NCBI GenBank assembly: GCA_029882915.1 | Contig: JAOUJZ010000001.1 | Location: forward strand, 1 to 64,000 | DNA: 64,000 bases | Reading direction: 5' to 3' | Origin: Gammaproteobacteria bacterium | Lineage (GTDB): Bacteria > Pseudomonadota > Gammaproteobacteria > Nitrosococcales > Methylophagaceae | Shown: positions 4,247 through 33,944 of the stretch, piece after piece | How positions within the stretch are numbered: the first letter of the stretch is position 1 | Layout of the letters: every line of letters begins with the position of its first letter | Notes under the pieces: generated by a model | The model's database searches: none | Told to the model about the DNA's origin: nothing | The model's input: only the letters and a program-made list of their open reading frames with translations | Translations under genes and position numbers: made by a program

Positions 4247-5974
4247 TTACTTTTTGTTCAACTTGTACGCAATAATTTCATTACCACGTTTGTAGTTCAT
4301 CTGAGCGTTACCACCTGAACCTACAACGATGTACTGATCACCAGCAACGTTATAAGAAGCAGGAGGTGCATTAACACCAGCTTTGGTTTGATCTTGCCAC
4401 ATTAACTCACCAGAAGTTGAGTTGTAAGCTTTGAACAAGCCATTGCCTTCACCAGTGAATACTAGTCCACCAGCTGTCGCCAAAATACCACCAATCATAG
4501 GTTGTTGTGTTTTGACTTTCCATTTGATTTTACCAGTGTTGTAATCAACAGCAGTCACATTACCCCATTGTTGTTCAGTTGGGATAACTTTGAATGCACC
4601 ACCAAGCCATAATTTACCTTCTGGATATGGTGTTTCTTCAACATGATAAGTCATTGGCTGATGCAAGTTGATTGCATAAGCTAAGCCTTGATTAGGATCT
4701 GTTGCCATTGGTGACCATTCAACACCACCGTTAGCGCCAGGCAACATGCTTGCACCTTCTTTAGTAGGCAATACCCAACGATCACGTTGCATTACCATTG
4801 GTTCTGAATGACGGATCAAGCTACAGTCAGATGCATTGTGCACATAAACATAACCAGTTTTACCACCGTGCAAGACGCCTTTCACTGTTTGACCATCTTC
4901 ATTCTTAACTGGAACAAGAATTGGAGGACTTACAGCATCAAGATCCCATACATCATGAGCGATGTATTGGAAGTGACAGATTTTTTCACCTGAATCCAGA
5001 TCTACTGAAACCAGTGAATTGGTGTAAAGGTTATCACCTGGACGGATAGCACCATATAGATCAGGAGATGGGTTACCAACCACGAAATACGCTCTGTTGT
5101 TATCGCGGTCAATAGCCATATTTTGCCATACACCACCACCCAGAGTTTTGTACGGGTCGCCTAATGTTTTCAGAGCTTCTTTCTCTGCTGCGATATCACG
5201 GTGCATGTATAAACCAGTAGCATCATTTTCAGCCCATACACCTGTTGAATCTTCAGGAATACTATGGAATGTCCATAATAATGCGCCAGTTTTCGCATCA
5301 AATGCTTTTACAAAGCCTCGAATACCATACTCACCACCATTAGTACCGATTAACACTTTTCCGTTAACAATGGTTGGTGCCATAGTTTCACTATAGCCAA
5401 GTTCAGGATCAGCAATTTGCGTTGCCCATACTTTTTTACCAGTTTTAGCATCTAATGCGACTAATTGAGAATCCAATGTTCCCATGTAGACCATATCTTC
5501 ATATGCTTGCACACCACGGTTATTTGGACCACAACAGTATGTTGTTATCGGCCCCATTTTATGCTGATAGTGCCACTTTTCTTTACCTGTTTTAGCGTCT
5601 AAGGCATAAACATGGTTGAATGACGACGTCACATACATAGTGCCATTAATTATGATTGGAGTTGTTTCTAATGAATCAACCACGTCCATTTTGAAAGTCC
5701 ATGCACGTTCCAAATTATGCACGTTTTCACGATTAATTTGCTCTGCTGGATAAAAGCGTGTTTGATTATAGTTAGCATTGGTATGCAAGAAGTTGTTTGC
5801 ATCGCCTGCTGCATTATCTAGCAGGTCCTGTGTAACAGTTTGCATATCACCAAACAATGTGCCACCTGTTACTTCTTCACCAGCAAAAGCACTCTGCAGA
5901 CCGGCTGTCATTAGCAGTGACGCGAGTCCTACTTTTATCAAGGTGCCACCACCCTTTTCTTTAAATTTGGACAT
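4247..5974 (-). CDS. PQQ-dependent alcohol dehydrogenase-family quinoprotein
   Basis: The 575-residue protein has a Sec signal peptide (cleavage near AFA-GE, residue 31) and an eight-bladed quinoprotein propeller of the methanol/ethanol dehydrogenase family. Visible family features are the vicinal cysteine pair C147-C148 (in YCCGPNNRG), probable metal ligands E215 (GGEYG) and N301 (GNPSPD), and the catalytic aspartate D344 in HDVWDLD. D346, two residues on, gives the D-x-D pattern that in XoxF-type enzymes adds a lanthanide ligand. The flanking CCGPNNRG and [12 protein letters not shown] differ from the usual MxaF/XoxF sequences (CCDxxNRG, HDEWD), so this is not a standard methanol dehydrogenase. 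There is no cytochrome domain, so it needs an external acceptor. Translation starts behind a strong AGGAGAGG. It follows the MFS gene by 85 bases on the same strand. Confidence 0.9.
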
Positions 5975-31017: not shown

Positions 31018-31389
31018 ATGTCAAAAACAACAATGGATCTGGTTCAGGAAGCCAAAGCTTCAATTAACGAAGTCACTATTGAACAAGCCAAAACCATGTT
31101 TTCTGAAGGAAGCATTGCGCTTGATGTTCGTGAATCACTGGAATACGAAACTGGACATATCCCTAATGCCAAGCATATTTCGCGCGGTATGCTGGAATTT
31201 ATGATTGGTAATCATCCAGATTTTCAGAACAAAAATGCCTCGGTGGTTGTTTATTGTAAAAGTGGTGGACGCTCGGCGTTGGCAACAGCGACCTTGCAAC
31301 ATCTTGGTTACACTAACGTCTATTCTATGCTCGGTGGCTTCGATGCCTGGAGCGAAGGTAGCGATATTCCACCAGAAACACACGCTTAG
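31018..31389 (+). CDS. single-domain rhodanese
   Basis: The 123-residue protein has a rhodanese fold with LDVRESLEYETGHIPNAKHI and the catalytic Cys80 in VVYCKSGGRSALA. Rhodaneses move sulfane sulfur as a cysteine persulfide. There is no signal peptide when started at ATG 31018 (AAGG seven bases upstream), so it is cytosolic. It is 43 bases upstream of the secreted CGCP-motif protein on the same strand, so it might act in that unit, but sulfur transfer to it is only a guess. Confidence 0.88.
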   Translation: MSKTTMDLVQEAKASINEVTIEQAKTMFSEGSIALDVRESLEYETGHIPNAKHISRGMLEFMIGNHPDFQNKNASVVVYCKSGGRSALATATLQHLGYTNVYSMLGGFDAWSEGSDIPPETHA

Positions 31390-31432
31390 CTTCAAACACA
31401 TTCATCCACATAATTAAGGTAGGAGTTAATTT

Positions 31433-32185
31433 ATGAAATTACACAGATTACTGACCACAATCATATTGGCACTTGCTCTCAGCAGCACTGCTTTTGCAAC
31501 TGAAACGAATGTTATGGTTCGCGCCAAAGCGATTGATGCCAAATTTATCGGTAGCAGTGTTGGTGGTGTGAAAGTCGTCGTTGAAGATGCTGAAACAGGT
31601 GAAGTTCTTGACCAAGGCTGGATTAACGGTGATACAGGCAGTACAACAACTCTTATCAAAGAACCTGTCTCACGTGGTCAACAACTGACAGATGATAAAA
31701 CTGCTGGCTTTGTAGCCAAAGTGGATATTTCCAGCCCTCGTTTACTGCGATTTAAACTCATTGGGCCTTATGGATATCGTCAGGCACTACAGGAAGCGTC
31801 TGTCACAAGCTGGGTCATCCCAGGCAAAGACATGCTTGGTGATGGAATCATCATCAATATGCCTGGCTTTATTGTGGATGCTTGGACACGGGTATTAGAA
31901 GGTGGTCAAGTTGATATCTATACCAAGGCGACGATGCTTTGCGGCTGTCCTATTTACCCTGATGGTCCATGGGATCCAAGCAATTATGAAGCGACTGCAA
32001 TCTTGATGCAGAATGAAAAGAAAGTTGGTGACGTTAAATTAGCCTTTACGGGCCCTGTCGGCATGTTTTCAGCTAGCACAACGATCAAAAAGCCAGGACA
32101 CTATAAAGCTATTGTGTATTTATATGACAAAAAAACAGGCAATGTCGGCGTCGATCGCACTATGTTTGAAATCAATTCAAACTAA
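31433..32185 (+). CDS. secreted protein with CGCP motif, unknown function
   Basis: The 250-residue protein has a signal peptide (cleavage after AFA, residue 22) and a beta-rich mature region that looks like two immunoglobulin-like halves (about 28-110 and 180-250). Between them lies its only cysteine pair, C170 and C172, in MLCGCPIYPDGPWDP, which could be a metal site or redox pair. Translation starts behind GTAGGAG. I do not recognise the family. It sits between a rhodanese and the MNIO/DUF2063 pair. Confidence 0.75.
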   Translation: MKLHRLLTTIILALALSSTAFATETNVMVRAKAIDAKFIGSSVGGVKVVVEDAETGEVLDQGWINGDTGSTTTLIKEPVSRGQQLTDDKTAGFVAKVDISSPRLLRFKLIGPYGYRQALQEASVTSWVIPGKDMLGDGIIINMPGFIVDAWTRVLEGGQVDIYTKATMLCGCPIYPDGPWDPSNYEATAILMQNEKKVGDVKLAFTGPVGMFSASTTIKKPGHYKAIVYLYDKKTGNVGVDRTMFEINSN

Positions 32186-32193
32186 TTATATTT

Positions 32194-32227
32194 ATTCACG
32201 CCCTGTCATAAATAACGGGGCGTGAAT
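32194..32227 (+). terminator. stem-loop after the CGCP gene
   Basis: ATTCACGCCC (32194-32203) and GGGCGTGAAT (32218-32227) form a 10-bp perfect stem nine bases after the stop codon, but only TTTG follows, so termination may be partial. It separates the CGCP gene from the MNIO gene. Confidence 0.55.
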
Positions 32228-32290
32228 TTGTAACATTTCTCCCTGCCAATTGTCCTAATGACAAAGACAACCACCACCAGGAGATAGCAC

Positions 32291-33142
32291 ATGAATACAG
32301 CTTCTTGTCCCGTATCAGGTACAGGACTTGGGCTTCGACGTAGTTTTATGGATGATCTGGCAGCACAACAAGATAAAGCTGTTGATTTCCTCGAAGTCGC
32401 TCCTGAAAACTGGATGGAGATTGGTGGTCTATTAGGTAAAAAATTCACCTCTTTCGCTGAACATTATCCCATGATCTGCCACGGTTTGTCCTTATCAATC
32501 GGAAGCCCTTCCCCTCTTGATGAACACTTCCTGCTTCGCCTGAAAAAATTCCTCGATAAACACAATGTACGCTGTTATAGCGAACACTTAAGCTATTGTA
32601 GTGATGATGGTCATCTCTATGATTTGATGCCGATCCCATTCACCGAGGAGGCTGCCAGTTACGTCGCTAAGCGCATTCAGCGAGTTCAGGAAATTCTGGA
32701 ACGACGAATTGTGATGGAAAACGTATCGTATTACGCAGCGCCCGGCCAGGAAATGACTGAAATTGATTTTCTAAACGCAGTCATTAAAGAAGCGGATTGC
32801 GACCTATTACTGGATATAAACAATGTCTATGTTAATAGCATTAATCATGGTTACGATCCTGAACGCTATATTAAATCTGTTCCACAGCACCGCATCGCCT
32901 ACCTGCATATCGCGGGTCACTATAATGAAGCCCCTGACCTAATTATCGATACACATGGAGCGGATATTATTGAGCCTGTCTGGCAATTACTGGAAACGAC
33001 CTATCAACAACATGGTGTTTTACCAACACTTTTAGAGCGCGACTTTAATATTCCATCACTTGATTCTTTAGTCAGTGAACTAGATAAAATCCGCCATTAT
33101 CAAACCGTTCAGGAATTCAATCATGTCGCATACACAGCCTGA
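32291..33142 (+). CDS. MNIO (DUF692/UPF0276) family multinuclear iron oxygenase-like protein
   Basis: The 283-residue protein has the DUF692 TIM-barrel blocks: GLGLRRSFMDDL, FLEVAPENWME, the H-x-LSLSIGS region, LLLDINNVYVNS, LHIAGH and LLERDFNIP. Characterised relatives (MbnB, TglH, HvfB/BufB) use two or three iron atoms to modify cysteines or asparagines in ribosomal peptides, and act with a partner protein. The DUF2063 partner overlaps by 20 bases. What is missing is a precursor gene: the 105 bases upstream hold only a hairpin and a leader, and no cysteine-rich small frame is visible nearby. It starts behind CAGGAGAT. Confidence 0.88.
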   Translation: MNTASCPVSGTGLGLRRSFMDDLAAQQDKAVDFLEVAPENWMEIGGLLGKKFTSFAEHYPMICHGLSLSIGSPSPLDEHFLLRLKKFLDKHNVRCYSEHLSYCSDDGHLYDLMPIPFTEEAASYVAKRIQRVQEILERRIVMENVSYYAAPGQEMTEIDFLNAVIKEADCDLLLDINNVYVNSINHGYDPERYIKSVPQHRIAYLHIAGHYNEAPDLIIDTHGADIIEPVWQLLETTYQQHGVLPTLLERDFNIPSLDSLVSELDKIRHYQTVQEFNHVAYTA

Positions 33143-33887
33143 ACCACAAAACTTTATTGATACCCAATATCAATTTGCTCGCCATATTCGAGATCCGGAA
33201 CAAAATCCCGCACCTGACAACATTGAACAGCGCAGAATGCAAATTTATCGCGAACTGTTTTATAACAATATAGAAGGCTTTATTGCTAATGCCTTTCCAG
33301 TATTAAGGAAGCTTACTTCCGAAGAAGTCTGGCACAGTATGGTGCGAGATTTTATGAGCAAACACCGCTGTCAAACACCCTTATTTCATGAAATAGCGCG
33401 AGAGTTCCTGATCTATCTCGAAAAAGAACGTGACTGCACAAATGATCCAATTTTTATCCGAGATCTTGCCCATTATGAATGGGTTGAGCTGGCATTAAGT
33501 GTTTTAGATACCGAGATTGAACCTATGCAGGTCAATCCAGAGCAAGACTGTCTTACGCTAAAATTAAATACCTCCCCACTCGCTTGGCCTTTAGCATATT
33601 CCTATGCTGTTCATCAGATAGCTCCTGATAATCAACCCACACATGCCAATGACACAGCCACATTTCTGCTTATTTATCGCAATACTCAGGACAGTGTGAC
33701 ATTTATCGAATTAAACCCCGTCAGTGCCCGTCTTATTGATCTTCTCAATGAAGGACTGACTGGTAAGAGTGCTGCTGAGCGCATCGCATTGGAACTACAA
33801 CACCCAAATCCTCACGTAGTATTAGATGGAGCTAAAACACTTATTACCGATTGGATTCAACGTGAAATTTTAATAGCCGTGCAATAA
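33123..33887 (+). CDS. DUF2063 family partner protein (HvfC/BufC-like)
   Basis: The 254-residue protein has an N-terminal helical DUF2063 domain with QRRMQIYRELFYNNIEGFIANAFPVLRKL and a C-terminal region of about 100 residues of winged-helix-like character. Proteins of this family bind the peptide precursor and present it to the MNIO enzyme. It overlaps the MNIO gene by 20 bases, making co-translation likely, and ends at a strong bidirectional terminator. Confidence 0.87.
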   Translation: MSHTQPEPQNFIDTQYQFARHIRDPEQNPAPDNIEQRRMQIYRELFYNNIEGFIANAFPVLRKLTSEEVWHSMVRDFMSKHRCQTPLFHEIAREFLIYLEKERDCTNDPIFIRDLAHYEWVELALSVLDTEIEPMQVNPEQDCLTLKLNTSPLAWPLAYSYAVHQIAPDNQPTHANDTATFLLIYRNTQDSVTFIELNPVSARLIDLLNEGLTGKSAAERIALELQHPNPHVVLDGAKTLITDWIQREILIAVQ

Positions 33888-33888
33888 A

Positions 33889-33920
33889 AAAGGCTGAAGA
33901 TAATCACATCTTCAGCCTTT
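33889..33920. terminator. bidirectional terminator between DUF2063 gene and eda
   Basis: AAAGGCTGAAGA and TCTTCAGCCTTT form a perfect 12-bp stem with an 8-base loop, flanked by A-rich sequence on the left and T-rich on the right. It serves two convergent genes. Confidence 0.9.
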
Positions 33921-33944
33921 TAATTTTCTTAATACTAATGAAAT

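Follow-up and report, generated by a model that had tools for sequence, protein, structure and literature searches.

The analysed window (64,000 nucleotides) very probably carries the enzyme half of a split HvfABC copper-peptide pathway of the captophorin/oxazolin type in a Methylophaga-like host, and the precursor HvfA is encoded on contig C33 of the same genome. We put the probability of this reading at about 0.88. The pathway is a known one (HvfABC/captophorin), here split over two loci, and not an undescribed one. The sequence-only reading had seen a candidate for an undescribed system, to be given up if a classical precursor turned up elsewhere; C33 encodes such a precursor.

Window genes and the identity of the enzyme pair

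The four-gene layout reported earlier was borne out: on the + strand the order is rhodanese, CGCP protein, MNIO and DUF2063 protein. The features are as follows:

31018-31389, + strand: rhodanese-domain protein, 123 aa (PF00581, 80 bits)
31433-32185, + strand: secreted CGCP protein, 250 aa, invariant M[ML]CGC (motif conservation, AF2 model)
32194-32227, + strand: 13-bp hairpin in the CGCP-hvfB gap, arms 32194-32206 and 32215-32227 (gap z -5.2)
32230-32254, + strand: putative ECF-sigma promoter of hvfBC, GTAACA-N15-TGTC (element common to hvfA on contig C33)
32291-33142, + strand: HvfB-type MNIO enzyme, 283 aa (PF05114, 360 bits; NF003818; PDB 3bww)
33123-33887, + strand: HvfC, DUF2063 plus NGO1945_C, RRE-type MNIO partner (PF09836, NF050145, PDB 3dee)
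33888-33921, + strand: intrinsic-terminator-like hairpin after hvfC

The rhodanese and CGCP genes are separated by a short gap of 46 bp, and the rhodanese is the probable first gene of a rhodanese-CGCP unit. The gap between the CGCP and MNIO genes is approximately 105 bp, and hvfB and hvfC overlap by 20 bp. The hairpin between CGCP and hvfB is a possible transcript boundary that is absent in some relatives. Its conservation among relatives is too poor for it to be called a terminator.

Judged by its domain-model scores, the window pair is an ordinary HvfB/HvfC pair. The MNIO enzyme matched the HvfB equivalog model NF003818 with 444.9 bits (cut-off 360) and scored 282.8 bits with the BufB model, under the cut-off of 310. 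Its DUF2063 partner was recognised as HvfC by NF050145 (305.6 bits, cut-off 142). HvfB matched PDB entry 3bww with an E-value of 4e-75, HvfC matched 3dee, and the HvfB ligand motifs LDINN, HIAGH, DTHG and ERDFN are all intact. In the whole genome only one MNIO and one HvfC were found, both in the window; the assembly, of 94 contigs, is about 90% complete and a second MNIO could be missing from it. The DUF2282 bufferin family (PF10048) had no match anywhere in the genome. Membership in the Buf1 bufferins was rejected on the lack of a DUF2282 precursor and the BufB score below the cut-off. Several other Methylophagaceae hold a second MNIO of about 270 bits, under the HvfB cut-off (e.g., G025:C16:64589-65359 and G015:C12:236244-237014). 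It probably belongs to a separate bufferin-type cluster, which is absent from the genome of the window.

The unlinked precursor and a common promoter element

The earlier statement that no precursor is visible near the enzyme genes holds. A search of all frames of the 64 kb window found no HvfA signature (EGKCG repeat or NPF..L.SGY leader element), and the gap 5′ of the MNIO gene contains no precursor-like ORF. The suggestion that the precursor may lie elsewhere was supported by a search of the host genome, in which the HvfA domain model NF050137 matched contig C33 with 38.7 bits (cut-off 19.5). The hvfA gene (C33:1087-1407) codes for a product of 106 aa with a Sec leader. The product contains NPFASTELSSGYMQLAEG and six cysteines, which are located in KCG motifs. 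With the full-length model NF050188 it scored 38 bits, below the cut-off of 95, and the MNIO-adjacent HvfAs of other genomes likewise stay under this cut-off. It is short and KCG-poor in comparison with some HvfAs of relatives.

The precursor gene is followed at its 3′ side by a gene for the DoxX-like HvfX (C33:1486-2070; NF050144, 228 bits, cut-off 80) and then by an MsrP/MsrQ-like gene pair with Oxidored_molyb and Ferric_reduct domains. On the 5′ side of hvfA, in divergent orientation, are genes for an ECF sigma factor and for an anti-sigma factor of the zinc-finger (zf-HC2-like) type. The C33 locus is a complete Hvf cluster without hvfB and hvfC, and those two genes are in the window. As a side observation, the MsrP/MsrQ-like genes directly after hvfA-hvfX on C33 (L092:2072-3674) connect this copper-peptide locus with methionine repair in the periplasm.

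The same split layout was observed in relatives. In seventeen members of the family, read in detail, hvfA is unlinked and encodes the same leader element, with the sigma factor, anti-sigma factor and HvfX beside it in nearly all of them, G018 excepted. In the more distant Gammaproteobacteria G049, G050 and G055, hvfA stands directly 5′ of hvfB, which is the usual arrangement. The lack of hvfA immediately upstream of the MNIO gene (it is on another contig in the host genome and elsewhere in relatives) is a difference of layout and not a failed core feature, because according to the literature linkage is usual and not required (PMC12452194). HvfA and HvfB occur together in 29 of the 44 genomes with a completeness of 90% or more and are both missing from 14; one genome has HvfB only and none has HvfA only (Fisher p 1e-10, without correction for phylogeny). 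Genome G001 carries two tandem hvfA-like genes (L098:3447-3866 and 4374-4793); the second has only two cysteines and is perhaps a decaying copy.

The two loci have a promoter element in common. Across relatives, the gaps before hvfB contain TGTAACA followed 15 bases on by NGTC in nearly all cases, and the element recurs with identical spacing before the unlinked hvfA. It was seen first in the hvfB set and then at hvfA, and the spacing was taken from both; therefore, control genes and shuffled sequences served as the specificity test. The count covered at most 200 bp upstream of each gene: GTAACA-N15-NGTC was present before hvfB in 40 of 46 distinct regions and before hvfA in 17 of 18, related upstream sequences not being independent events. 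The expectation from shuffles is about 0.02 per set. The element was absent from all control regions, namely those of CGCP (0/38), rhodanese (0/31), hvfC (0/46), KDPG aldolase (0/32), ABC permease (0/40), DUF455 (0/29), DoxX (0/18) and the sigma factor (0/17). A strict pattern, TTGTAACA-N16-GTCNTA, matched hvfB in several genomes but not hvfA, where GTC is followed by different bases; the looser form was then counted. We infer that the sigma factor encoded beside hvfA recognises this element.

The HvfB/HvfC pair of the window most likely modifies the small cysteine-rich peptide of C33, which is itself probably copper-binding, by analogy with relatives, from which the promoter use is extrapolated as well. 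In the proposed mechanism, metal or redox stress would release the sigma factor, which would activate hvfA-hvfX as well as hvfBC from the GTAACA-N15-NGTC promoter and so coordinate the two loci. HvfC would present the HvfA leader to HvfB, and HvfB would oxidise the KCG cysteines to thiooxazoles. The modified HvfA would then be exported by Sec and bind Cu(I). Rhodanese and CGCP would represent a separate, older neighbourhood that stands upstream by chance.

It is improbable that HvfBC is instead a relic, or serves a small peptide missed in assembly gaps, with the C33 HvfA modified by another, unassembled MNIO. The genome completeness of about 90% and the short, KCG-poor HvfA would fit such a situation. 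However, the intact ligand motifs of HvfB and the promoter element common to hvfA and hvfB argue against it, as do near-complete relatives (e.g., G027 and G018) with one MNIO and an unlinked HvfA.

Comparison with known systems

In the characterised pathway, HvfBC oxidises the cysteines of HvfA to 5-thiooxazoles, the products bind copper, and the preferred form of the precursor is the full-length one, signal peptide included, which indicates a leader role (PMC13097082, PMC13419390). The system described here shares with Haemophilus HvfABC-HvfX and with FonABC/gonophorin (EGKCG captophorins/oxazolins; PMC13097082, PMC13419390) the HvfB and HvfC equivalogs, the DoxX-like HvfX and an HvfA with a Sec leader and KCG cysteines. 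It differs from them in that hvfA and HvfX are encoded at a locus apart from hvfBC, and in its degenerate HvfA repeats, in which spacers set the KCG units apart and EGKCGEGKCG is infrequent.

A similar regulatory arrangement is the sigmaF bufferin regulon of Caulobacter (CC2907-2905, CC3254-3257 and YedY; PMC3511200), in which an ECF sigma factor also serves several loci with MNIO, DUF2063, precursor and DoxX genes and an Oxidored_molyb gene. Its experimentally mapped promoter, GTAACC-N16-CGAA, drives MNIO/DUF2063/precursor operons and the YedY gene, and it resembles GTAACA-N15-NGTC (PMC3511200). The Caulobacter precursors, however, are of the DUF2282 type (Buf1) and adjoin their MNIO genes, whereas here the precursor is an unlinked HvfA. 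The anti-sigma factor is a membrane NrsF/DUF1109 protein in Caulobacter and a zf-HC2-like protein here.

Stand-alone Buf_EGKCG precursors, which likewise have no adjacent MNIO, were suggested by the authors who described them to be modified by MNIO enzymes of another locus (PMC12452194). In the present case, unlike in theirs, the partner locus is identified, and it is tied to the precursor by a promoter element across a family. The same work already mentions Oxidored_molyb and ferric-reductase genes beside EGKCG precursors (PMC12452194). In the main sequence cluster, about 4,000 MNIO enzymes are reported to lack an adjacent known precursor family (PMC12452194). Here, an "orphan" MNIO/DUF2063 pair was matched to its precursor in spite of missing linkage, by a genome-wide precursor search and a common ECF-type promoter element. 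The same approach may resolve some of those enzymes.

The CGCP protein and its neighbourhood

Of 59 relatives, 31 encode a homologue of the CGCP protein. Most of those with a name are Methylophaga, and the window is accordingly assigned to Methylophagaceae. The CGCP gene directly precedes hvfB in 22 of these 31 genomes, all of one family, so the CGCP-MNIO adjacency looked for in other genomes does recur. The flanking genes for DUF455, ABC permease, KDPG aldolase and Edd are kept as well. Because the flanks are conserved too, the adjacency is explicable by inherited synteny. Shared ancestry can explain the 22 genomes, but it is no proof of irrelevance.

The sequence-only reading had regarded the CGCP protein as a possible substrate. 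According to this proposal, HvfBC would act on CGCP itself and convert CGC to a copper ligand of the thiooxazole type, carried by a secreted, folded protein, HvfA being a second substrate or none. The adjoining CGCP, MNIO and HvfC genes in 22 genomes, the invariant CGC and the export of the protein speak for it, and large MNIO substrates are thought possible (PMC12452194). However, CGC is equally invariant in eight Bacteroidota genomes and in three order-mates (G038, G040 and G041), none of which has an MNIO over the threshold, and no MNIO was found near CGCP outside Methylophagaceae. Conversely, G003, G011, G012, G013 and G018, all at least 90% complete, keep hvfBC and hvfA and have no CGCP. 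The CGCP protein also contains neither a KCG repeat nor an HvfA-like NPF..L.SGY leader element. The hvfBC genes have their own conserved promoter element and CGCP has none, with read-through transcription possible. In G001, G006 and G007 the neighbourhood is divided at the CGCP/hvfB boundary. Rhodanese-CGCP stays with the ABC permease, its older neighbour, which is kept also in order-mates G038-G041, and hvfBC with its promoter element is located elsewhere, with the KDPG aldolase. CGCP as the substrate was rejected as the best reading, given the conservation of its cysteine motif where MNIO is absent and the retention of hvfBC where CGCP is absent. Modification of CGCP by HvfBC is unlikely, with only a slim chance for the proposal as formulated above, and the protein is probably an unrelated secreted neighbour of the enzymes. 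Slimmer still is the chance of two substrates in Methylophagaceae, the distant HvfA and the neighbouring folded CGCP, in which CGC would be turned into a thiooxazole copper site on the protein. A conserved neighbour should not be named a substrate from linkage alone.

A single functional operon of rhodanese, CGCP, HvfB and HvfC, with the rhodanese supplying sulfur as proposed earlier, would fit the 46 bp rhodanese-CGCP gap and the conserved order, but it is highly unlikely in view of the HvfB chemistry, which oxidises substrate cysteines without external sulfur (PMC13097082, PMC13419390), the hvfBC loci of G030, G031 and G035, at which no rhodanese was detected, the rhodanese-CGCP block without hvfBC in G001, G006 and G007, and the separate hvfBC promoter element.

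The CGCP protein has cysteines at positions 170 and 172 only, and its N-terminus is of Sec type as judged by eye. No exception to the M[ML]CGC motif was seen among the 30 aligned relatives, among 10 distant homologues of 36-43% identity or among class-level homologues, whose identity falls to 27%; the motif is possibly a metal or redox site. The protein matched no Pfam or NCBIfam family, and a comparison with PDB sequences gave weak matches only and no relative. The AlphaFold2 model shows two beta-sandwich domains (pLDDT 83). The C-terminal one (residues 145-250) matches the common FnIII/Ig-like folds (VIA-align Z about 10, 2.4 Å over 91 residues), and whole-chain Foldseek matches are poor (TM 0.2-0.3). 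The family is sparse in Gammaproteobacteria (11 of 369 sampled) and is present also in Bacteroidota and Hyphomicrobiales. In two Bacteroidota contigs the CGCP homologue is followed by a CcmE gene and a CcmF-looking gene of cytochrome c maturation (L153:9915-10307 and L147:7369-7764; CcmE was confirmed by Pfam in L153), which is a possible hint to the role of CGCP. In G007, a TauE/SafE sulfite-exporter-like gene directly precedes rhodanese-CGCP (L165:2687-3589), which suggests a sulfur-related context for these two genes.
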